From Mesostigma viride (Eukaryota > Streptophyta > Mesostigmatophyceae > Mesostigmatales > Mesostigmataceae): a stretch of 64,000 nucleotides of DNA. How positions within the stretch are numbered: position 1 is the first letter of the stretch; the number at the start of each line of letters is the position of its first letter. Location: positions 350,564-414,563 of the forward strand of contig RPFO01000213.1 in NCBI GenBank assembly GCA_009746045.1, in the 5' to 3' direction. Shown one piece after another: positions 4,360 through 64,000 of the stretch. Below the pieces are notes generated by a model, which was not told the DNA's origin, did no database searches, and saw only the letters and a program-made list of their open reading frames with translations. Position numbers and translations under genes: made by a program.

Positions 4360-5078
4360 TGTAGCGTGCCGACTAGGGTCGAGCCTAGCGAGCACGAGGA
4401 AGTTTGGCAAAAGAAATATGGTATAAAAAGATACGTGCAAAAAGCGATAGATACCTAAGGTGGTTAACGTTGAAGTCCATACCTTGCGGCACATGCACCT
4501 CTGCATGTGTATACGAGGGTGCCGACAGTCGATATCTAGAGTAATATTGGTGACATTGGGATATATATCGATGGATGTGTGTCCGATGGCATAACGTAAC
4601 GATGGTTACCACGGACATGGTTAGAGGTCGATCAGCCCTATATGTTCGACCCGTAGTTCGGCACACTACAATGAACTTCAGGCCGTAACTTAGTGACGGG
4701 CCACACGAGTGGATCAGCCAGCTGGACTGCCGAGTGCCGACCTAGTGGCACTGCTTGGCATAAAGGCGTGCGAGGACGATGGACAAGACAGTCGTCCTCC
4801 AATCCGCCGACTCACCCACCTCAGTTAATCTGAGCTACGAATCTATTCCTTTTAATACAATCGTGTTCGACACATAACCTTGTACAACTGCAATTGCAAG
4901 AATACAAGAAGGTAATTAATATAATGACTCTGGGCCTACGTTGTGATGACAGCAAGCAAGTAGCCCATAGCTTAGTGATTTCCCTTCCTACTCAGGCAGG
5001 AAACAAACCGGGACGATAGTCCCGTAGATAGAAACGATCTTTCCCAACGTGCCTGGCCGATGGGTTTGGCACGTTACA
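4360..5078 (+). repeat. 5' LTR of element 1 (719 bp)
   Basis: Matches 13661-14400 along its whole length. Differences are a handful of substitutions plus several 2-9 bp indels, many of which look like small local duplications (for example AGCAAGCAAG versus AGCAAG). A TATAAAAA box lies at 4422-4429. Confidence 0.93.
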
Positions 5079-5079
5079 C

Positions 5080-5091
5080 TGGTATCGGAGG
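5080..5091 (+). promoter_or_regulatory. Primer-binding site, initiator-Met tRNA-like
   Basis: TGGTATCGGAGG lies one base after the LTR end. The usual plant iMet site is TGGTATCAGAGC, so about 10 of 12 bases agree. The second element has TGGTTATCGGAGG at the same place. Confidence 0.7.
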
Positions 5092-5143
5092 TTTGTTTTC
5101 TTGTTTTGCATTTCGTTGCCTGAGTATAGTTAGTTGATGATGC

Positions 5144-6940
5144 ATTCTATTCCCACTATTACCAATCCACCAACATTTGATTAAAACAATAAGTGGGCAA
5201 TTACAGAACCCATGAGTGAGCCTGCCACGCTGCACCCATTTCATGATTGATTGTAGTTCTCGTTACCCTAGAAACAAACACAAGAAGAGGGAGGGGGGGC
5301 GGGACAAGAAAAAGAGACCTAGAACATCGTGCAATTGGCACTTTAGGGCGGCGTAGCCCGGGCTCGCCTCATGAGCCGTCAGCAACAGTAACTTAATTGC
5401 TACTTAACTTAACGAACTAGAAATGGCCATACAAAACTGGCCAACTAATTCTAACTCATGGAACCGGTCCAGCCCAAGGCCCACCGTCCCGTAGTACCAC
5501 TCACATAGCGGCGTTCATTCTCATCTGTTATAAAGAAACTACGTTCAGAGAACACCGATTCTATTCCCACTATTACCAATCCACCAACATTTGATTAAAA
5601 CAATAAGTGGGCAATTACAGAACCCATGAGTGAGCCTGCCACGCTGCACCCATTTCATGATTGATTGTAGTTCTCGTTACCCAACCCCCCTTTCCTGGTG
5701 CTTTATCTCCAAAGCTCCGCCAACCACTTTCGCTCAGTGGCTCTCGAGGCTGCCCTGCCGCAACGGTCACGACCATTACAATCGCCGGCGGCTGTAGCGA
5801 GCCTCATGCACGATAACCCTTCGCAGGGCCCCCCCCAGCCTTCCACCCTCGGCCAGTAAAAGAGGGTGTTGAATGTGCACGCAAAGACAAGGAAGAAGAC
5901 GCCTCGTTTAACGACCACGGACCTCCCTCAAAGGCCAGTGCCGCCCTAACGTGACGACAACTTGTAGGACGTCACCCGATGCCACCATATCTCGATTACT
6001 GTCAACGTTGTCACCTGGGGGAGTAACTTTCCATATTTCAGGTTTTAGTTGATGAGCAGGCTCTCATCACACACCCCAGCGGCCGATAAAGCGCAAGCGC
6101 AACTGGGCCGGCCAAAATATTTGGTCCTGCCCGGCCCAGGTCCGTCTGTTAAACTGGCCCCTTAAGTCTCGGTCTGAATCGAAATATTGCATAATTCCGG
6201 AATTCGTCCCCACCACATTCCCGAGACCTCACGCACCCATAAGAGCGGATGCTGGTAAATATTTTTCTACTTACGCGAGGGCCGACAGACTTGTCGTCCA
6301 TCACAATGCCCACTGAAAGTAACCCGACCACCCTTCCTTCGGCAGTCAGTAGTCAGGAACTGCAACCCTGCTGCGACATTCCGCAGCAAAGCGGTAGGCA
6401 CTGCAGCGTGGCACGGAAATCTTACTCATGGTTTCAGAGTTCCGTACAGGTGCCACGCGCAGGCAAACGCGAAGTATTTTATAGTCTCTCGTCGGCCAAG
6501 AACCCAGCTGCGGGGAGAAAACCGACGAGGGTAATTAATTTCTTTTTCACAGTCACGTGACTGTTCAAGCTATGTCAGTCACGCGCCATCTCTAATCGGC
6601 CACCGCCAGCCAAAAGGCTGACGCGATTAGGGCAGCATTAAATTTCTTGTAATCCGCCATACCCATACCCCATACATCCGATTACAAGAAAAAGAGACCT
6701 AGAACATCGTGCAATTGGCACTTTAGGGCGGCGTAGCCCGGGCTCGCCTCATGAGCCGTCAGCAACAGTAACTTAATTGCTACTTAACTTAACGAACTAG
6801 AAATGGCCATACAAAACTGGCCAACTAATTCTAACTCATGGAACCGGTCCAGCCCAAGGCCCACCGTCCCGTAGTACCACTCACATAGCGGCGTTCATTC
6901 TCATCTGTTATAAAGAAACTACGTTCAGAGAACACCGATT
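5144..6940 (-). mobile_element. Split-direct-repeat element A (non-autonomous, DIRS/PAT/Ngaro-like layout)
   Basis: Read on the minus strand, the order is A1 (6940-6684), unique 1001 bp, B1 (5682-5558), A2 (5560-5304), 35-bp spacer, B2 (5268-5144). The two 257-bp A copies and the two 125-bp B copies appear identical by eye. B1 and A2 share the trinucleotide AAT, which also begins A1 and ends B2. This A1-body-B1A2-spacer-B2 plan is that of tyrosine-recombinase retrotransposons of the PAT/Ngaro/Kangaroo type. No RT or recombinase is encoded, so it would be a passenger. It is nested in the leader of LTR element 1. Splice or expression evidence: none. Confidence 0.8.
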
Positions 6941-7921
6941 ATCTTGCAGTCATTCCGGCAATGGTCGGAATTGCCGAAATCTGATTTACGAATATTGCAA
7001 CAGTGACAGTCGACGATGGTCGACTCAGTTTAGATCGATCCGGCGATGGTCGGAGCTACCTTTTGTTATACTCCGCTGGGCTGTGTTGCACTACTAGCTG
7101 CGCACCACCCCCTGTGCAGGTCATCACGGACAGGCACGTGAAAAAGCAAGCGGCCCTCCTGCTGGCGAGAGGACGGGTGGACACGAAATCGCGAGGTAGC
7201 TGGCCGGCGAGGTTGCTCTGACGAAAGTCAGGGCTGTCTACATTCCTGCTTCTTCCTTTCGTCATTTCGTTTGTTTTCCATGCATTATGGAGCGGTAATA
7301 CCTTAACGGCCCTCGATGGAGGAACCGTGATGGAATTTCAGTTTTTTCTTGCACAACCGCTTCCTTACTTTGCGGATTAGCATTTGTTTTCCGGCTGCAC
7401 CTTTATTTTCTTTTCCTTTCATAGTCCTGGGCCGACCCCCTCAGAACCAGCTCAATCCAAGGTGAGAATTCTGACCGATGGGTTGGAACAAAAATGCCAT
7501 TTCTTTTTTTGTAATCCGTTTGGTTGCATATACAAATCTTATATTGTAATATTGTGATACGGACCAAAAAGGGGTATAGTGGCATTTTCCTTACCTTTCA
7601 GCCGATGGGCTCAAACCAGATGTCTTCCTTGTGCCTTGCCGATGGGCAAGAATAGGAGGATATTTGGTACAAACAACTAGGGCTTGACGTATACATCCAG
7701 CAAGCTATATATTGCATTTTGATGTACATGCAACCCTATTGAGGGTCCTACTAAACTTATACGATTCATAAATTAACAAAACATTAGACCTGACATTAGC
7801 CGTATAAGTTGACCACGATCCAAGGGTAGGACTAATAATAGTACTAAGTGCTATAAAGGTGTGTGTGAGTGGTGTGTGTGTGTGTCTAAGGGTCGGGTGG
7901 GTAGTTGGGGTGTGGGGACCC
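6941..7921. other. Leader of LTR element 1, no gene recognised
   Basis: About 1 kb between element A and the gag relic. Open frames are short and do not resemble known proteins. A GTGTGT-rich stretch lies at 7858-7890 just before the first gag ATG candidate. Confidence 0.4.
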
Positions 7922-9080
7922 ATGACCCCGGCAACCGGCCTCGAGTGCTGCACTTTAACACCTAATAGGCTAGCACACCCAAAATCGCAACAAATCGAGC
8001 TGGAGCACGCGCACAGACAGCGCCGTTGTCAGTCTGCAGGATCCAACATGAGTAGGCGAGTCAGGGACACGGACGTGAACCTGAACTTCAGCACCATCAC
8101 GGCAGATGACCCGGGCTACGATCACCCACTTTACGCCCAAGCGCGACAGCAGGCAGGAAGCTTCTTGGTAGGACACCGGTCCAAGCATACTCTCCTGCCG
8201 CCCACGTTTGGGTGGCCTGAGCCCCGGGAGTTCAGCGGCCCCAGGCGGCAAAACCTTTTCAAGGCGCCGCCCATGCCCGACTTCAAGCACATCCCCAAGC
8301 TAAACAAGAGCATGAAGCCGCGAGACATCCAGGAGTGGGCTAGGCTGGTGAACAACGCCATTACATTCTGGTCGAACTACCACAACTGGGATCTGTCCAC
8401 CGAGGACTTGATCGACTTGATCATCACCCAGGCCATGGACATCTCAGTTACACGACTGCTTCACTGCGATAGCATCGCGTCACAGTCCTATACCCCAAGG
8501 ATATCCACGAGCTGATGGAACGATTTCAGCAGAAGCTCGTCCCACCAGACGCTGAGTTCCAGGAGCGCATCGCCTTTGGCGCATTCCGACAGGGTGACAT
8601 GCCCTACCGCGAGTTTGAGGTGGAATTGGACGAGATGGCGAATCGCCTATTGGATGTGTCGGGCCACGAGTACAAGATTCGCCTCATGGAGGCCATCCAC
8701 CCTGATCTGCGGCTCGAGGCTAGGAAGAAGTTTGCAGACACCCCGTGGCATCTGTGGGACATGTCCAAGGTCAAAGCATATCTCCTCACTACAGCCGACG
8801 ACCACATGGCTAGTAGGACTGCATGCTCGACGCGGCGCGTACTGACGCGTCGAATCCAGCAGACGAAGGCGACCTCGCGCAGGAATCCCCAGCTGAGGAG
8901 GAGCAAGATGAGGAAGATATTGGCGACGCGCAGAATGACTCTCAGGTCAATGCTCTACTCAACACCCGCAGCCGGCACATGCGGTGCTTCTACTGCCAGG
9001 AGATCGGTCACATGAAGCGCAACTGCCCGAAGTTGACGAGAGGAGCAGACACGCCCTGTGACACGTCGGCAACCTATTGA
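7922..9080 (+). pseudogene. gag pseudogene of LTR element 1 (CCHC zinc knuckle)
   Basis: ATG candidates are at 7922 and 8048. The frame runs to a TGA at 8513-8515, shifts after ...ASQSYTP, continues 8515-8810 (ERFQQKLVPPDAEFQERIAFG...), then shifts again to 8823-9080. The last part is acidic and ends with the knuckle RCFYCQEIGHMKRNC, a C-x2-C-x4-H-x4-C motif typical of Gag nucleocapsid. It aligns by eye with the gag at 20672-22992: both have NLNFS..DDPGY.HP, KAPPMP.FK.PKL, SIASQSY and KLVPPDAE. Gag would bind RNA and form particles. Two frameshifts and the Harbinger insertion just downstream make it non-functional. Confidence 0.85.
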
Positions 9081-9101
9081 ACATGATCATGTGGACCCTT
9101 A

Positions 9102-9775
9102 GGGCCAACTCACACGGGTCGCGATCCGTGGTTCGTACGGTCATGGTTCGCGAACCGCTTTGCCGAGTGGCATCGAACTTTCTGCCACGTGGAACAGAAA
9201 TTGGTTGACGAACCGGTCGCACTCACACGGCGGGTCGCGGGCGTTCGGATTGTTCAAATAGATAAAGATTGGTTCACAGTACCTTTTTTTCTGGCATTTC
9301 CGCACGTTCCGCTCTTTTCCGCACTCCTCCTCAATCTCCTCGTTGTCGCCACCTGTCCTTGGATTTACACATACAGCGGGATATCTACGATACCGTATTC
9401 TGATTATTCGGGTGTATCCAGTGATTATTTGTCTTTACTGGACGATACTAAATTCTACCTGGCGAGACCGGCTTCGCTGGATCGAAACTGTCCAGTTTTC
9501 TTCAGCACCCTGCCGTACTGGTTCTACGCCGACTGAATTCGTACCATTAATTCCCGTACTTTCAGGTCTTTTTCGCACTTGTCAGGTTCGATTCACGGAC
9601 ACGTGGACTTTTCTCTCGTGAACATGGGTCGCGATACGATTTCCCGCGAACCACAAAGTCGGGTCGCGAACCATGCCCGTTTTCCGGCACTATCTGCCGA
9701 CGCCGTGAGAAGATTCCTGCCACGCATGACAAGAGTGCTCACGAACTACGGATCGCGACCCGTGTGAGTTAGCCC
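9102..9775. mobile_element. PIF/Harbinger-type MITE, TSD TTA
   Basis: The ends are inverted repeats of about 35 bp starting GGGCYAACTCACACGGG and continuing TCGCGATCCGTRGTTCGT. TTA flanks both sides (9099-9101 and 9776-9778). Three-base TWA duplications and GGG/GGC termini are characteristic of PIF/Harbinger. Extra subterminal copies of GGGTCGCGA occur inside. The 674-bp body has no transposase, so it is non-autonomous. It lies 21 bp after the gag relic. Confidence 0.85.
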
Positions 9776-9778
9776 TTA

Positions 9779-10429
9779 GCTTTGCATTGCGGTTTGATAC
9801 TCAGCCAACCTTTCTTTGGGAACGAACCAACCTGTTCCCTTCTTCCCTTGCAGGATGCTGCCGGGCTAAGGCCGGGCATGTAGGTCTGCCGCATAGTCGG
9901 CAACCATTCCGAAATGCTGCGGCCGGGAGGTCTGACACTGATTCACCACTTGCCATGTCTGCCTACTACTATTAATTGCTCTGTGTCGACCACACCCACG
10001 TTTCCTTTTTATAGCCGTGGCAGCCTCTGCTCAATGTTGTGTTTGGCCGTGAAGTCGAGGATCCTTCGTGTGACATGCACAATGGCTTGCCGCAACTTAG
10101 GTATTGCTGCTAACGCCTATATACTAATATCGCATAGCCACATTTGTCTGATTGACTAATCCCTAGAGTGTCACGTAGGCGCGACAAATCTGTCGATTAT
10201 CATAGTACTGTCTCCAGATCCATTTAGGGGGGGGAGGAGTCTGACAAGGTTATTGTGATGAAACAACATCAAGTGAAGGGCCAGTTCAGGTGTCAGAATA
10301 TAGTACTTGACATATCTGTCTGGTACTAGTTGTCTTTTCCTTTTCCCTGCACGGCTGCTGGCCAGCGATGGCTGCCCTCAGCAGTTGGCATCATGCATTC
10401 CATGCAGAGGTTACTATGTGTGGAGTCTT
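9779..10429. other. Internal region of LTR element 1, no gene recognised
   Basis: Open frames are short and without recognisable motifs; pol remnants were sought and not seen. Confidence 0.4.
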
Positions 10430-12428
10430 ATTCGGATTTCTTTGAAAAGAGTTTCTCGAAGTGAGGCGGGGAATAAGGCCGCTCACGGGAGCCGCCTGGA
10501 TGGTCGGCTGAACCGGGCGGGTTTGGCAGATGTAACCGGATTTGGCTAATGGCTGGCGACCTGGAATTGTTAGTAGGGGCAGTGGCCCTATTGTGCTACA
10601 ATCTCGAAACAATCTTATGCTTAAAGTTTGACAGGGCCGGGTTTGTTGAACCGGTTTGTTGAATGATAATTAGAACCTTTCGGAAAGGGTATTTGATTGG
10701 TTGTTGTTTTTGTGGTACGGTAGGTGTCGCTACATTCTCAGGTTGGCGTGTTAAGTTAAGCTCGGTTGCTGATGTCAGCCCCGTGCTAGGGCAGTTTGAC
10801 TACTTTGGCGGCGTAGTGACATTGTTGTGGTCTTTTTTCTTGTAAACGTTGGCTGAGCGCCGACGGCTGAGGCTATGGCGGTACAAGAAGTGCCTCACCA
10901 GCCTTGCGCTCAGCATGGGTGCGGGGCTAAAATTTGTTAACCAAATTTCCGGCATCCATGATCCCTGGCTGCTTAAGGCGGTTGGGATTCATGGCTGCCA
11001 CTGGCCCGGAATTAATGTCCGGGTGATCGGGGTTTAAATGCGAAGCGGGGGCTGATGCATTATTTAATGGCTGGTTTGTTTGAAAGAAACGGCCAGCTGG
11101 CCGGGTTGGGCAAGGGCTAGCTTGCTTGATGGTTCCGTACCTGGGGATGCTTGCGCCTCGGGTTGGGCTGTCGGCAGGCTGGCCTGCCTTTGAGTTGTCT
11201 CGTACCTGGAAATGCTTGCATTCCGGGTTGGGCTTGGCTTGAGGGCCGCCGCGGCTCGGGGGGGTAAAAAATTTAAGTCACCGTTGTGGGACACGGAGCC
11301 TCGGCGCAGGAGGCAAGGGCTGAAAGCCAACTTGATTTCGTAATCAGTGGTATTTCCACTTTTTTGTACGGAAGGAGTGTTTATGTGCTCGGCACTAGGT
11401 TGGTTGCTCTTCAAAAAAGTTGTAAACTGGGCGTCGGCTGGAATCAGCGGCGCCAGTAAGCAGCTTTTGCTTTGACTTTGTGTTCCGCGACAGCACCCCT
11501 TAGCGGACCAGAGAAGAGGTCGGCAACGAGGTCAGCGGGGGCCCCCGAGTGGGGTCAAAAATGCGAGCTGTGTCGATTGACAGTGCATGAATTTTTGTGC
11601 ATTCACAGTCGCTGGGAATTAAATCTGTTTTCTGGCAACGGAGAGCGCCCATCGCGACAGGACAGCTTTTGACGGGAAAGGAAATGGTGCTTCTTTAGCG
11701 GACCGGAGGGCCAGGAAGGGGAGGTTGGGTAATCGCGAGCCATGCCTAAGGAGTTCTTAATAGCGGTTCTGTAACCGCTACCTGTCTGTATGCATCTACT
11801 TATTGTTTTAACAAAGATGCTGGTGACTATGGTGAGCAAACGGGTGTATGAATCGGATTTCTTTGAAAAGAGTTTCTCGAAGTGAGGCGGGGAATAAGGC
11901 CGCTCACGGGAGCCGCCTGGATGGTCGGCTGAACCGGGCGGGTTTGGCAGATGTAACCGGATTTGGCTAATGGCTGGCGACCTGGAATTGTTAGTAGGGG
12001 CAGTGGCCCTATTGTGCTACAATCTCGAAACAATCTTATGCTTAAAGTTTGACAGGGCCGGGTTTGTTGAACCGGTTTGTTGAATGATAATTAGAACCTT
12101 TCGGAAAGGGTATTTGATTGGTTGTTGTTTTTGTGGTACGGTAGGTGTCGCTACATTCTCAGGTTGGCGTGTTAAGTTAAGCTCGGTTGCTGATGTCAGC
12201 CCCGTGCTAGGGCAGTTTGACTACTTTGGCGGCGTAGTGACATTGTTGTGGTCTTTTTTCTTGTCCCACCCACCCACCCTCTTTGGTGGCCTGGTCTGCG
12301 CGGGTAATCGCGAGCCATGCCTAAGGAGTTCTTAATAGCGGTTCTGTAACCGCTACCTGTCTGTATGCATCTACTTATTGTTTTAACAAAGATGCTGGTG
12401 ACTATGGTGAGCAAACGGGTGTATGAAT
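10430..12428 (+). mobile_element. Split-direct-repeat element B (non-autonomous, DIRS/PAT/Ngaro-like layout)
   Basis: The order is A1 10432-10843 (412 bp), unique body 10844-11726 (883 bp), B1 11727-11853 (127 bp), A2 11853-12264 (412 bp), 37-bp spacer, B2 12302-12428 (127 bp). Paired segments appear identical or nearly so by eye. B1 meets A2 at AAT; A1 is preceded by ATT and B2 ends in AAT. The body has no convincing ORF and no RT, RNase H, methylase or tyrosine recombinase. Both A starts (TCGGATTTCTTTGAA) and the B core (ACTTATTGTTTTAA) match elements A and C. Confidence 0.82.
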
Positions 12429-13646
12429 GTCTTTTTCAGCTGTGCATGGTCTAAGTTGTTATAGTCATGCAGTTGCTGTCTCCCTTCTTTCTCTTGGGGC
12501 TGGCTTCTCGCCACCCCGAGAGTCAGCCTGACTTTTGTTTGTATATGCCATGCTTCTGCACGACCACAAGCGCAAACAACCCACGCACACAATCTTGCAG
12601 GTTTGAGTGGCGCGCCCATCACGCACTCTGATTTTCCCGTCGCTGAACACGGGACGCTACATCAAGTCATCAATTCAGCGATGTGCGGTCTGACTGCACC
12701 ATCAACATGCGGTTCTTCTCCGATATGACCAAGCTGCATGCGCTAGCTAGCAACACAGCCACGTACCGGTTCACGTACGGCTTCTCCTGATTCAGTTGAC
12801 AATTCAGACGACAACAACCCCAAGCAACTTTGATACGTATCGTCACGATTTCGGCATAAACGTCAAGTAACTGATCAAGCTAGTCTGGCGCATGGCCAGA
12901 CATCCCAGCAGCGGCCAGGACTACCTGCCTCACAGTACGTCGCCTGGCATCACAATGGATGTCCTCAATCCACCAAATGGACCGGTACGATCAACGGCTA
13001 TTATAGGCTTGCCGGATCCACCCTCTATGAATGTTGAGCGGATATAAGCTGCTCTCAAGGAACGGGTGTAGGGTTGTTCATGAAACTGGTGTAACCCAGG
13101 GCGGATGCCTGAAATCATATAGGCTGAAGCTTAAGGCCTGGCGGGACCAGCTCATGAACGCTTCTATAGCCCTGTGTTCCATCTTAGTTAGGGCTCTAGG
13201 CCCGACCGAGGGATCCCTCGGTAGAATAGGAGGGCCTTACGCCCGCCCGGTTCCTCGGCCCGGTAGATAGTTCTAAAGGGACCAAGGTCTTACTTAGGGC
13301 TGGACACTTGGGCCGGCGACCTAAGGAAACAAATCCTGCCGGGGCAGGTCTATCCGTGGGGAGAGTCCCTATTCGAGCGCGGCCCCCCTCCGATCGCTAG
13401 TGCCCAGGATCGTGCCCCTCGATCGCTGTGGCTAGGATCGTGCGCGCCCGCCGTCCGATCGTGCCCCCGATCGTGCGCGCCCGCCTCGAATCACTATATA
13501 GGGTGGGCTCCAGCGGATACCCGGCTTGATGCGTGACTAAGGGAACTTAGCCTAGGGAGAAGAAGGCAACGAGGCCAAGGTCTGGATAGCGCATGAGCCA
13601 AACTATTTGTACCCTTCGCTTGAAGGGAGTGGGCTCCCTTCCCCGA
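12429..13646. other. 3' internal region of LTR element 1, no gene recognised
   Basis: No pol domains recognised. GATCGTGC-type short repeats cluster at 13390-13485. TCCCTTCCCCGATAGGGGGGGAGGAG leads into the 3' LTR. Confidence 0.4.
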
Positions 13647-13660
13647 TAGGGGGGGAGGAG
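13647..13660 (+). promoter_or_regulatory. Polypurine tract of element 1
   Basis: AGGGGGGGAGGAG sits immediately before the 3' LTR, the place where plus-strand synthesis is primed. The same GGGGGGAGGAG core abuts the 3' LTR of element 2. Confidence 0.8.
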
Positions 13661-14400
13661 TGTAGCGTGCCGACTAGGGTCGAGCCTAGCCAGCACGAGG
13701 AAGTTTGGCAAAAGAAATATGGTATAAAAAGATACGTGCAAAAAGCGATAGATACCTAAGGTGGTTAACGTTGAAGTCCATACCTTGCGGCACATGCACC
13801 TCTGCATGTGTATACGAGGGTGCCGACAGTCGATATCTAGAGTAATATTGGTGACATTGGGATATATATCGATGGATGTGTGTCCGATGGCATAACGTAA
13901 CGATGGTTACCACGGACATATGGTTAGTAGAGGTCGATCAGCCCTATATGTTCGACCCGTAGTTCGGCACACTACAATGAACTTCAGGCCGTAACTTAGT
14001 GACGGGTGAATTTGGGCCACACAAGTGGATCAGCCAGCTGGACTGCCGAGTGCCGACCTAGTGGCACTGGCAGCTTGGCATAAAGGCGTGCGAGGACGAT
14101 GGACAAGACAGTCGTCCTCCAATCCGCCGACTCATCCACCTAGCTCAGTTAATCTGAGCTACGAATCTATTCCTTTTAATACAATCGTGTTCGACACATA
14201 ACCTTGTACAACTGCAATTGCAAGAATACAAGAAGGTAATTAATATAATGCCTCTGGGCCTACGTTGTGATGACAGCAAGTAGCCCATAGCTTAGTGATT
14301 TCCCTTCCTACTCAGGCAGGCAACAAACCGGGACCATAGTCCCGCGTAGATAGAAACGATCTTTCCCAACGTGCCTGGCCGATGGGTTTGGCACGTTACA
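13661..14400 (+). repeat. 3' LTR of element 1 (740 bp)
   Basis: Pairs with 4360-5078 and is 21 bp longer through small insertions, for example GTGAATTTG after GACGG. TATA box at 13723-13730. Followed by the target duplication CAAGC. Confidence 0.93.
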
Positions 14401-14840
14401 CAAGCTCCAGGAGCTGGAAGACACGCGCCGCGAGGCCGCTGACCGCGACCGTCGCCGCTGCCAGATCATCCTCAGGCGCTTCGAAATGCAGCCGGAGGAG
14501 ACCCCAGACTAGCTCTCTTCTCGACGAGCTGAAGAAACAACTCCTGGCGTGCATGGAGCTGCCAGGTGCGGCACTGCAGGTCGCCTACCGCCTGCCCCAT
14601 CCACGGGCCAAGGCTGGGCCCCCTCCAGTGGTCCTCACCTTCAGCGACATCACAGCCCGTCGGAGTTCGGTTCCTCTCTTGCCGCAAGAAGCTGGTGGAC
14701 ACCTCCTGGTTGCTTGACGACGACCTGACGCCAGCCCAGCAGCAGCAACGCCGCGATCAGAGGCCCGACTACATCGATCCGCCACAAGACCAACCCCGAG
14801 AAGCCCCAAGTGTACTGGCGGGGCGGGGACCTTGATGTCA
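14401..14840 (+). pseudogene. LINE ORF1 pseudogene, 3' piece (RRM-like and C-terminal domain)
   Basis: Continues the frame broken at 4359, reads LQELEDTRREAADRDRRR, then stops at TAG near 14510. The RRM-like region follows in shifted frames: LPHPRAKAGPPPVVLTFSD, then CRKKLVDTSWLLDDDLTPAQQQQRR. The same blocks occur at 17503-17731, 37664-38841 and 42446-42793. In L1 ORF1p this region is the RNA-binding RRM plus C-terminal domain. Several frameshifts make it a relic. Confidence 0.65.
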
Positions 14841-43165: not shown

Positions 43166-43610
43166 TTTGCTTGTTACACAGAATAATTCCACGCAGATGC
43201 GCATCTCACAAGTCATGGTCAGATGGGGGGTACTGGCGATTGCCGCCTACGCTTCCCGCGCCCCAACATTGACAGGGAACACAAGGTTCGAAACCTGTCT
43301 GACAAATGGCACACTATGTTGTCACCCTACGACAATGATTGACTATTCAATCATAAGTTAATGTGATATCCATTTCTGGCCTTGCTTTGCTTTGCATGCA
43401 TCACCACAAAACATCAAATTTATTACAATATGTGTGCTAGCTTATACGGTGGAATAACACAGACATGTCTACCAGATGGCAACACGGCCATCTGTATGCT
43501 AGGGTGAGCACACTATGTGAATTTGCAGGGCCAGCCCACAGCAGCTGTGCCCCTGCTCTACCCACATCTCCTTACATGGCTAACAGCCGAAAAAAAAAAT
43601 TATGTAGGAC

Positions 43611-44930
43611 AGGCAAAAAAGAAAACTCAAACTACCTAGCTATGGGGGTACTTTGTCCCAACCCAGGTTCACCCTCGGGTTAGTTAAACCATTTCCCCCC
43701 TGACCTCCCACACAAGGGTGAGGTCAGTTGATAGCTAAAAGACGAGAGATGAAAACGGGAAGACGTCAAAACTCGACGCCACCGAAGTGGTGGAGATGAA
43801 ACAGCAAAGACTTCCGTCAATGATCGTCACAGAAAACAAGTATCAAACTACCGCCGAAGCAAGAACAGCAGGTTCGGCGGCAATTATTTTCTTAGTCAAG
43901 CAACGCAACAGGTCGACAAATATTTCATCTCGAACCAGAAAATCCCAAAGTCGGCGCAATGATAGACTTTGCCATCAAACCACCGTCGTATGAAATATTC
44001 TGGAACTGCCGACACTGGGTCTGAGGATGGAGATTCTTGACTGTTTTAGGGTTTCAGGCAAAAAAGAAAACTCAAACTACCTAGCTATGGGGGTACTTTG
44101 TCCCAACCCAGGTTCACCCTCGGGTTAGTTAAACCATTTCCCCCTGACCTCCCACACAAGGGCGAGGTCAGTTGATAGCTAAAAGACGAGAGATGAAAAC
44201 GGGAAGACGTCAAAACTCGACGCCACCGAAGTGGTGGAGATGAAACAGCAAAGACTTCCGTCAATGATCGTCACAGAAAACAAGTATCAAACTACCGCCG
44301 AAGCAAGAACAGCAGGTTCGGCGGCAATTATTTTCTTAGTCAAGCAACGCAACAGGTCGACAAATATTTCATCTCGAACCAGAAAATCCCAAAGTCGGCG
44401 CAATGATAGACTTTGCCATCAAACCACCGTCGTATGAAATATTCTGGAACTGCCGACACTGGGTCTGAGGATGGAGATTCTTGACTGTTTTAGGGTTTCA
44501 GGCAAAAAAGAAAACTCAAACTACCTAGCTATGGGGGTACTTTGTCCCAACCCAGGTTCACCCTCGGGTTAGTTAAACCATTTCCCCCCTGACCTCCCAC
44601 ACAAGGGTGAGGTCAGTTGATAGCTAAAAGACGAGGGATGAAAACGGGAAGACGTCAAAACTCGACGCCACCGAAGTGGTGGAGATGAAACAGCAAAGAC
44701 TTCCGTCAATGATCGTCACAGAAAACAAGTATCAAACTACCGCCGAAGCAAGAACAGCAGGTTCGGCGGCAATTATTTTCTTAGTCAAGCAACGCAACAG
44801 GTCGACAAATATTTCATCTCGAACCAGAAAATCCCAAAGTCGGCGCAATGATAGACTTTGCCATCAAACCACCGTCGTATGAAATATTCTGGAACTGCCG
44901 ACACTGGGTCTGAGGATGTAGATTCTTGAC
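43611..44930. repeat. 444/445-bp tandem array, three near-identical copies
   Basis: Units start AGGCAAAAAAGAAAACTC at 43611, 44056 and 44500, and the last ends GATTCTTGAC at 44930. Only a few substitutions separate them. Each unit has inverted motifs, GACCTCCCACAC...GTGAGGTC and CCGCCGAA...TTCGGCGG. A 68-codon frame present in every copy is likely chance. The array ends about 2 bp beyond the stop codon of the adjacent gene and so would form its 3' UTR. Confidence 0.95.
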
Positions 44931-61717: not shown

Positions 61718-64000
61718 AATCGGTTTTCTCTGAATATAGTTTAATTAACGCATGCGGGAAAGATAGGGCCGCTATGCCTTGGCCTGGATGTGGAAGGCTG
61801 TCTGCGACATGGGCTGACTAATTCGATCTGTACAAAGGGTTTCCTGTTCGCCCGAATTTTCCATGGATGACCCGGTTGTTTATAAGGGTCAGTGGCTATT
61901 AATTAGTGGTCCGAGAAAATTAATGGTAGGTTTTATACGACTTCCTTGCAAAGATCCGTGTTTGGTTGCACCAGCTGAGCTTAGGTGGGGACCTGTAGGG
62001 TCGGCTGGTTGCTTAACGAATCTTTGGCTGATTTGGGTTCTTTAGTGAGTCGTGATGAATTATTGTATAGTGGATTCGGACCGGCCCAAGGGGTCGATGG
62101 GCGAGTTTTATGTTTGTCAGTCTTGGGAACCTTGTACAATACCTGTACGGTTAACACACTAGCCTGGGGGTGCGTGGCCACGTTGTTTGTAGTGGCGTTT
62201 TCAGCACTGTTCAGGCCGGCGTGTGACGCATGCCGGTGTTGGAGGATGATGTCAGCTTGTGTGTCGGCGGGCCATGCAAGCTAGGCAGGCAATGATCCGC
62301 AATTATTTCTTTCCCAATGGCGGCAATGGCCGCCTGCGCAAAATTGCACATTCTAGCGCAGGTTGCATCTGTCTTGTAGCCGAGGCAGATGGTGGCACAA
62401 TCGCTAAGTTGTCCGACCAAGCATAGTATAGTTGGTCGTGCAACGGAAAGAAAAATTTAAATTTACCCCCATGTCGTTTTTCCCCGGCTGCGTGTCTTAT
62501 TGACGTGGGCGAAGGATGGGGCGCTACTTCGGCGGTTTGACCAGCTTCGGCGGAGCTGTTCATAAGTTACTAAAACAGCTCTAGTGTCACATCGCAGGCT
62601 TGCCACCTTGCGATGGTGCGTGGGAAGTGATTTGGACTCAAAAGGTCCTGAGCCAGGTTCCGGTCAGCAACGGCCTGTTTTTTTCATAAATTATTTTTTG
62701 TGGCGGCAGGTCAGTTGTCCAGTTGCCCCTGCCGAGGAGGGGTAGTTGGGGACAATAGGAGCCGCGCGAGAGTTGCGCTCCGAAGCTAGAAATTTCCCTA
62801 TTGCGAGACTCGAGTTCCAGGGAGGGCGTCCTAGGGAGGCGAGGCTACGCCAGACCTTTGTCGTTCCTTTTCGTCTCAGCACCTGCTGCGCGGCTCAGTC
62901 TATTATGGTGCGGTAAGACCTCTTTCCTTTTTGGACGGTTCCGGAATTGCGAAATGCTGGCTCTTTTGGGGGGCTTGCTTTTGGGGTGGTCACCGGCTTG
63001 TGTCGCATTGAACCAGCGGGCCCCTGCGAGGGTTAATATAGCCTAGCGCGGGCTGAGTCGCCATTTAAGATGTTGCGACACGCTCTTTCGCGCACGGTGG
63101 TCATGAGTTTAATCGGCGCAATGGGGTTGGCGCCAGGGGGGGGTAATTGGGTGGAGGCTTCTTGCTTCCGCGTGCGGATTGAGAAGCCTTAAGGCCACTG
63201 TTAACTGCTGCATTTGTGGCAGGGCTCCACTTATTGTATTCAATCAAATGCTGGTCTTCTTGGGAGCTCAGTGATCTTAATCGGTTTTCTCTGAATATAG
63301 TTTAATTAACGCATGCGGGAAAGATAGGGCCGCTATGCCTTGGCCTGGATGTGGAAGGCTGTCTGCAACATGGGCTGACTAATTCGATCTGTACAAAGGG
63401 TTTCCTGTTCGCCCGAATTTTTCTTGGATGACCCGGTTGTTTATAAGGGTCGGTGGCTATTAATTAGTGGTCCGAGAAAATTAATGGTAGGTTTTATACG
63501 ACTTGCTTGCAAAGATTCGTGTTTGGTTGCACCAGCTGAGCTTAGGTGGGGACCTGTAGGGTCGGCTGGTTGCTTCACGAATCTTTGGCTGATTTGGGTT
63601 CTTTAGTGAGTCGTGATGAATTATTGTATAGTGGATTCGGACCGGCCCAAGGGGTCGATGGGCGAGTTTTATGTTTGTCAGTCTTGGGAACCTTGTACAA
63701 CTACCTGTACGGTTAACGCACTAGCCTGGGGGTGCGTGGCCACGTTGTTTGTAGTGGCGTTTTCAGCACTGTTCAGGCCGGCGTGTGACGCATGCCGGTG
63801 TTACTTAATTTAGGATGATGTCAGCTTGTGTGTGGGCGGGCCATGCCTTAAGCAAGCTAGGCAGGCAATGATCCGCAATTGTTTCTTTCCCCTCCCTCCC
63901 ACCCTGGAGGCTTCTTGCTTCCGCGTGCGGATTTAGAAACCTTAAGGCCACTGTTAACTGCTGCATTTGTGGCAGGGCTCCACTTATTGTATTCAATCAA
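61718..64000 (+). mobile_element. Split-direct-repeat element C, cut by window end
   Basis: A1 61718-62315, unique body 62316-63151 (836 bp), B1 63152-63281, A2 63279-63891, 13-bp spacer, B2 63905-64000 (incomplete). A copies differ by several small indels (for example TTACTTAATTTAGG versus TTGGAGG). AAT starts A1 and joins B1 to A2. The start AATCGGTTTTCTCTGAA and the B core ACTTATTGTATTCAATCAAA match elements A and B. No ORF of note in the body. Confidence 0.8.

Follow-up and report, generated by a model that had tools for sequence, protein, structure and literature searches.

Element B of Mesostigma viride, a 2-kb split-repeat unit, is very probably a non-autonomous tyrosine-recombinase retrotransposon

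A 2-kb stretch of Mesostigma viride DNA in which two pairs of direct repeats are interleaved raises the question of whether it is a mobile unit in its own right or a duplicated host segment split by later insertions. The DNA studied (the window) comprised 64,000 nt of contig RPFO01000213.1 of assembly GCA_009746045.1 (positions 350,564–414,563, forward strand); positions below are those of the window, and the stretch, referred to as element B, lies on the plus strand. Its parts are arranged in the order A1 (412 bp), body (883 bp), B1|A2, spacer (37 bp) and B2 (127 bp). Alignment within the window showed both repeat pairs to be 100% identical (A1 and A2, 412 of 412; B1 and B2, 127 of 127), so that the plan and the repeat lengths proposed in an earlier sequence-only reading were exact.

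The left terminal repeat A1 (10432–10843), an exact match to A2, starts with TCGGATTTCTTTGAAAAGAG. The body (10844–11726) contains the motif TACCTGGGGATGCTTGC at 11138–11154 (element position 707), which is also present in a further family (D, see below), and a second copy of it, TACCTGGAAATGCTTGC, at 11203–11219 (element position 772). Directly before B1 there is a purine run, AGGAAGGGGAGG (11713–11724), a putative primer tract. B1 (11727–11853) holds a block, CTACTTATTGTTTTAACAAAGATGCTGGT (11796–11824), shared with the coding element F1 described below, and overlaps A2 (11853–12264) by one base, T11853. The B1|A2 junction, GAA-TCGGAT-TTC (11850–11861), is the proposed tyrosine-recombinase site and the sole match to (G/T)AATCGNNNTTC in element B. 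The spacer (12265–12301) opens with the C-rich stretch CCCACCCACCCACCC, and the equivalent place is C-rich in families A, C and D and in F1. The right terminal repeat B2 was matched over 12302–12428; comparison of 40 copies placed the mobile unit at 10432–12427 (1996 bp, TCGG...TATGAA), ending with GAA at 12427, and assigned the last matched base, T12428, to the target. The longest stop-to-stop frames overlapping the element were of 155 and 137 aa, both antisense; judged by open-frame length it has no recognisable coding capacity, in agreement with the earlier claim. No Rfam match was found anywhere in the 64-kb window.

A search of the 440-Mb assembly gave 276 candidate places for element B, and the best 40, which were scored, all span the unit (query 1–3 to 1996–1999). 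The genome holds 329 occurrences of a 26-base word from the start of A but none of the reversed word used as control; with 40 of 40 scored matches spanning the unit, the pattern is not due to chance. The scored copies were those most similar to the window copy, so that old or damaged copies are not represented among them. They share the same ends, in line with the sequence-only reading: on the left TCGGAT in 39 of 40 and TCAGAT in one, on the right GAA in 38 and GTA in two. The 39 copies of equal length (L036, with a 3-base indel, was left out) differed pairwise by a mean of 2.65 of 1996 bases (0.13%; maximum 8), and 50 of the 741 pairs were identical; the family has therefore been active recently. 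Variants within A occupied the same place of A1 and A2 in three cases (L035, L045 and L047) and were confined to one repeat in five.

In most copies insertion was not accompanied by target-site duplication. The number of bases repeated across the insertion was 0–2 in 36 of the 40 copies, and the fraction of copies with at least two bases common to both flanks was 0.225, a slight excess when compared with 0.09 in a control made from flanks of different copies. Four or more end bases were repeated in L009 (ATAT), L024 and L036 (simple repeats) and L037 (a TTAA-rich stretch). Two copies ending in TATGTA, L027 and L042, carry a word of 10 or 12 bases that recurs close to both ends; these odd ends fall outside the mechanism proposed below, and the only idea we can offer for them is a second, rarer route.

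Uninserted forms were found among the fetched loci for three copies located in repeats: L018 with L053 (80% over 327 columns), L033 with L060 (81% over 54) and L039 with L061 (99% over 75). At all three related empty sites the join was seamless, with no duplicated base. In addition, on contig C123 an element of family D had inserted into A1 of an element B copy, where the target, being element B sequence, had neither lost nor gained a base; the insertion point reads TAA|TTATCATTC in the orientation of D. The 1996-bp unit thus enters as a single piece and with a clean join, and the earlier contention that a tandem duplication plus an insertion cannot account for it was borne out.

The junction pattern (G/T)AATCGNNNTTC, that is (G/T)AA-N6-TTC, occurs exactly once per element, at B1|A2, in all five families compared; since it was composed after the junctions had been seen, its weight lies in its uniqueness and in its being shared. 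The target sites of element B resemble this junction. In 35 of the 40 copies (L010, L024 and L036 were left out for simple-repeat flanks, L027 and L042 for odd ends) the target agreed with the element B junction at a mean of 6.9 of 15 positions, compared with 3.8 in neighbouring DNA (z about 11), with G at –3 in 21, A at –2 in 27, A at –1 in 26, T at +7 in 24 and T at +8 in 26. When all 40 copies were counted, GAA occupied –3 to –1 in 16 and TT occupied +7 and +8 in 19, so the preference is loose. A wider list of right ends, obtained with a pattern whose design excludes C at +2 and G at +19, comprised 98 sites with 88 distinct flanks, of which 62 had T at +8 and 74 had T or A at +7. As judged from these alignments, targets of this kind are what one would expect if a tyrosine recombinase used a B2|A1 joint as its substrate. 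All 40 copies carried the 6-base core of the element (TCGGAT in 39, TCAGAT in one) on the left, and none carried it on the right.

The spacing of A starts was read from the first 100 of the 329 places, which gave 45 pairs. It was 1403–1475 in 44 of them and 3382 in the remaining one, in which an element of family D is nested; no circularly permuted copy, with A starts 575 apart, was found among the 45. Ten unpaired A-start places from the same 100 were examined for alternative resolution of the core, which was rejected as the cause for the seven that could be read as other forms. One (C67) is a normal A1 with one mismatch. Two (C436, L103; C887, L106) are bodyless A-spacer-B versions of element B, bordered left and right by genomic DNA, and C844 (L105) is a more diverged form of this kind, 93% identical to element B, with the same flanks as C436. 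C224 has one A and a partial spacer, C1:11629112 and C446 have A1 followed by at least 230 body bases (about 650 bases were fetched), and C1:13567735, C130 and C331 are A2 ends with A1 not at the expected place. Recombination of A1 with A2 may be the origin of the reduced A-spacer-B forms. In one copy of F1 (L052) the B end directly abuts unrelated DNA, without A2 or B2; this is perhaps the complementary reduced form, A1-body-B.

Element B is one of several. Three further small non-coding families, A, C and D, carry the same plan, and two of them are present in the window. Family A (1794 bp) lies on the minus strand at 5145–6938, with A1 at about 6684–6938, B1 at 5558–5682, A2 at about 5304–5560, the spacer at 5269–5303 and B2 at 5145–5268. 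Family C lies on the plus strand at 61720–64000, with A1 from 61720 and A2 from 63281, and its right end falls beyond the window. Family D, of about 1960 bp, was recovered in L081. All families have the A start TCG...TTCT.TGAA...AGTTT, and GCCGCT follows at about 50 bases. They further share the B core, CACTTATTGTTTTAA..AAGATGCTGGT, which varies somewhat, as well as C-rich sequence in the spacer downstream of A2 and G-rich sequence immediately upstream of B1. The unbroken run of 12 purines before B1 is limited to families A and B, with shorter G-rich stretches in F1, C and D. Outside the terminal blocks, the body of element B gave no blastn match at E 1e-3 to F1, family A or family C. The bodies of the four small families are otherwise largely unlike each other, with the exception of the one motif shared by B and D, a similarity of D to C (63% over 150 columns) and a match of D to A over 245 columns that extends into the body before B1.

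The window copies of families A and B are both enclosed in an LTR retrotransposon (4360–14401), in which element B is thus nested. Its LTRs (4360–5079 and 13661–14401; TGTAGC...TTACAC) are 95% alike over 745 columns, a purine run precedes the right LTR, and the flanking repeat is of four bases, AAGC. The left LTR is followed by TGGTATCGGAGG, which we take to resemble a tRNA primer site.

The sequence-only reading had predicted an autonomous partner sharing A and B and encoding RT and a tyrosine recombinase. The genome was searched for the Pfam domain Phage_integrase; the best 150 of 824 candidates were scored, and the matches listed were all above the cut-off and came mostly from few repeated families. 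One of these, F1, is represented by a complete copy of 5467 bp on contig C2, with the order A1, gag-like ORF (350 aa), pol (P0001, L080; 1099 aa), B1|A2, C-rich spacer and B2. The B1|A2 block follows the pol stop codon, that is, the internal repeats lie downstream of the recombinase, which is in sense orientation. In P0001 the Phage_integrase domain scored above the Pfam cut-off and was the only match at E up to 5, at which neither an RT nor a methyltransferase domain was called, although a very divergent methyltransferase is conceivable; the gag-like ORF gave no Pfam match. The RT of F1 was recognised by alignment to P0003, which carries RVT_1 and Phage_integrase and aligns with P0001 over 923 columns, RT included, at 30% identity, and RNase H by conserved residues. 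R933, H1028, R1031 and Y1063, together with I442-D443-D444, are invariant in the four aligned proteins; the first four are recombinase residues, and the roles of all of these are established. A profile of the four pol proteins matched the tyrosine recombinase XerA (solved structures) with E 4e-7, and the top match of F1 pol in a protein search was a Mesostigma viride protein, with 78–79% identity over the aligned part.

P0001 and P0003 contain a 2A-like motif, EGI(H/E)PNPGP, in the interval that separates the RNase H region from the recombinase, and at this stretch the pol profile also matched a virus chain (E 0.005). Other recombinase families were seen as well. Three head-to-tail units of 444 bp, 99% alike, in the window at 43610–44930 match the region just downstream of the recombinase ORF of family F2 (L065). 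A third family (profile span 15–167, with many ORFs of 734–756 aa) is clustered on contigs C1391, C1480, C1579 and C1835, with three to seven copies within about 23–114 kb per contig, and is perhaps centromeric. Contig C2011 gave three strong Phage_integrase matches (L048, L049 and L051; 160, 127 and 89 bits), of which L049 looks AT-rich, and these are perhaps bacterial or other foreign DNA.

F1 and element B share the candidate recombination site and terminal blocks, with 70% identity over 111 bp across B1|A2 (E 2e-10). The prediction of a partner therefore held in part: F1 has the same plan and the RT and tyrosine recombinase, but its similarity to element B is confined to short terminal blocks and does not extend over the whole of A and B, so that a partnership of the two is inferred. 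The search gave no coding element carrying the complete repeats of element B, nor any pair of A starts 4–6 kb apart among the first 100 of 329 places; a closer coding partner may exist, because the best 150 of 824 recombinase candidates were those scored.

The homology of the terminal blocks to F1 would also be expected if element B were a relic left by internal deletion of a particular autonomous element, with a body that is leftover sequence and without a lineage of its own. A parent may lie among the 824 recombinase candidates, of which the best 150 were scored, and the body similarities among the small families (the B/D motif, D to C, and the D/A stretch) also speak for a relic. Against this, the body lacks a match to F1 at the blastn threshold given above, and the four bodies are otherwise dissimilar; we consider a relic unlikely. 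A different route to the same joins would be that of a non-autonomous Crypton-like DNA transposon, in which an excised DNA circle reintegrates through a tyrosine recombinase without RNA, as site-specific joining without target duplication suits any tyrosine recombinase. However, the split-repeat plan and the terminal blocks are common to F1, which encodes both RT and recombinase, and the homogenised A1 and A2 variants of three copies favour copying. Reintegration of a double-stranded circle should in addition yield permuted copies, which were absent from the 45 pairs, and this route appears highly improbable. Spread of the copies by segmental duplication or assembly redundancy, to which the 8 of 88 distinct right flanks found at more than one place and the flanks shared by C436 and C844 could be attributed, is refuted for most listed copies by the 88 distinct flanks among 98 sites and by the target consensus, and its probability is negligible. 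Equally negligible is the possibility that a host segment was duplicated in tandem and that the body and the spacer then entered it as two unrelated insertions: the repeats alone would allow it at one locus, but the order is the same in 40 of 40 scored copies, the A-start spacing is 1403–1475 in all listed pairs except the one with a nested element, and the seamless empty sites, including one inside another B copy, lack all parts together and exclude it.

Element B is thus very probably a non-autonomous retrotransposon of the tyrosine-recombinase type, Ngaro/PAT-like, that is complete, has been active recently and is mobilised in trans. The corresponding part of the sequence-only reading is supported by the one-piece copies and by the existence of F1, whose role we infer. 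In the cycle proposed, RNA would be read from within A1 to within B2 and reverse-transcribed by proteins of an F1-like element acting in trans. The internal B1|A2 block would supply the missing ends, so that B2 would be joined to A1 and GAA-TCGGAT-TTC rebuilt; such rebuilding would explain the identity of A1 with A2 and of B1 with B2. For such templating, the block would be bounded by the G-rich stretch on its B1 side and by the C-rich spacer on its A2 side. A recombinase of the F1 type would then recombine the B2|A1 junction with a chromosomal site of roughly GAA-N6-TTT. The predicted outcome, seamless insertion of the unit, is that observed at the empty sites and in the target consensus.

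Some observations strain this scheme. With a plain double-stranded circle as substrate, B1|A2 and B2|A1 would be identical as sites, and insertions of the form A-spacer-BA-body-B should make up half of the total; none of the 45 pairs from the first 100 of 329 places was permuted in this way, which such a circle does not predict. Moreover, a staggered exchange is expected to place the core of the target on the left of some copies, and none of the 40 shows it. By our estimate from the bit scores, copies of that kind would have ranked among the best 40, a sample chosen by likeness. It is conceivable, though we hold it as a tentative proposal, that integration bypasses the ordinary double-stranded DNA circle, only B2|A1 being recombinogenic despite the identical B1|A2 and the core being resolved one way. 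An intermediate that is linear or in part single-stranded would agree with this, with a single-strand exchange resolved by replication, as for integron cassettes; several non-coding families would then depend on one recombinase pool acting at a common GAA-N6-TTC site.

Among known systems, Ngaro-type elements have the order A1-[ORFs]-B1A2-B2 with the internal repeats downstream of the recombinase, mostly make no target duplication and lack a methyltransferase domain, as described in the available text of PMC4157794 and PMC8547959. Element B and F1 resemble them in the split direct repeats, element B also in that most of its copies show no target duplication, and F1 in the internal repeats downstream of the recombinase and in that no methyltransferase was seen; element B differs in its size of 2 kb without recognisable coding, F1 being the coding counterpart. 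The combination of RT, RNase H and tyrosine recombinase was not found in element B itself. The PAT, TOC3 and Kangaroo elements likewise have split direct repeats, with a putative methyltransferase domain; TOC3 is found in algae and Kangaroo, with an inverted recombinase, in Volvox (PMC4157794, available text). Element B and F1 share the split repeats with this group, but F1 shows no methyltransferase (Pfam, E up to 5) and, unlike Kangaroo, has its recombinase in sense. Under the definitions in the same text (PMC4157794), the lack of a methyltransferase match in F1 points to Ngaro rather than PAT. Of the PAT/Ngaro/Kangaroo plan first suggested for the locus, the split repeats thus stand in both elements, and no methyltransferase like that of PAT and Kangaroo was found in F1.

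SIRE of Trypanosoma cruzi is a short non-autonomous version of VIPER and corresponds to its A2 + B2 region, according to the available text of PMC6681497. It is short and retains terminal repeats of a tyrosine-recombinase retrotransposon, and the reduced forms of element B at C887 and C436 are similar; element B differs in having kept every part of the A1-body-B1A2-spacer-B2 plan, and F1 has no match to its 883-bp body. TOC1 of Chlamydomonas reinhardtii is PAT-like, with split terminal repeats, a length of about 5.7 kb and less than a full protein set. As generally described, it is like element B a repetitive green-algal element with split repeats, but longer. With SIRE and TOC1 as earlier short relatives, the kind of element is already known, and the class is not wholly undescribed; what is new is a set of small families in which the split-repeat plan is complete while each family has its own body. 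A literature search returned little on short non-autonomous tyrosine-recombinase retrotransposons, and the wordings "non-autonomous DIRS" and "non-autonomous Ngaro" were not found in it. Short hitch-hiking elements are well known for LTR and LINE retrotransposons. TOC1 is termed retrotransposon-like in the available part of PMC7722844, and DIRS-type naming is absent from the available main text of the Mesostigma genome papers (PMC7027972, PMC6947507).

The genome of M. viride thus offers four small families, one of which is documented by near-identical copies, precisely defined ends and clean empty sites, and has a coding relative alongside it in that genome. Together they point to the recombinase site GAA-N6-TTC and to a minimal set of cis-acting blocks, and they make the model of circular integration testable by counting permuted copies and scoring the orientation of the core.
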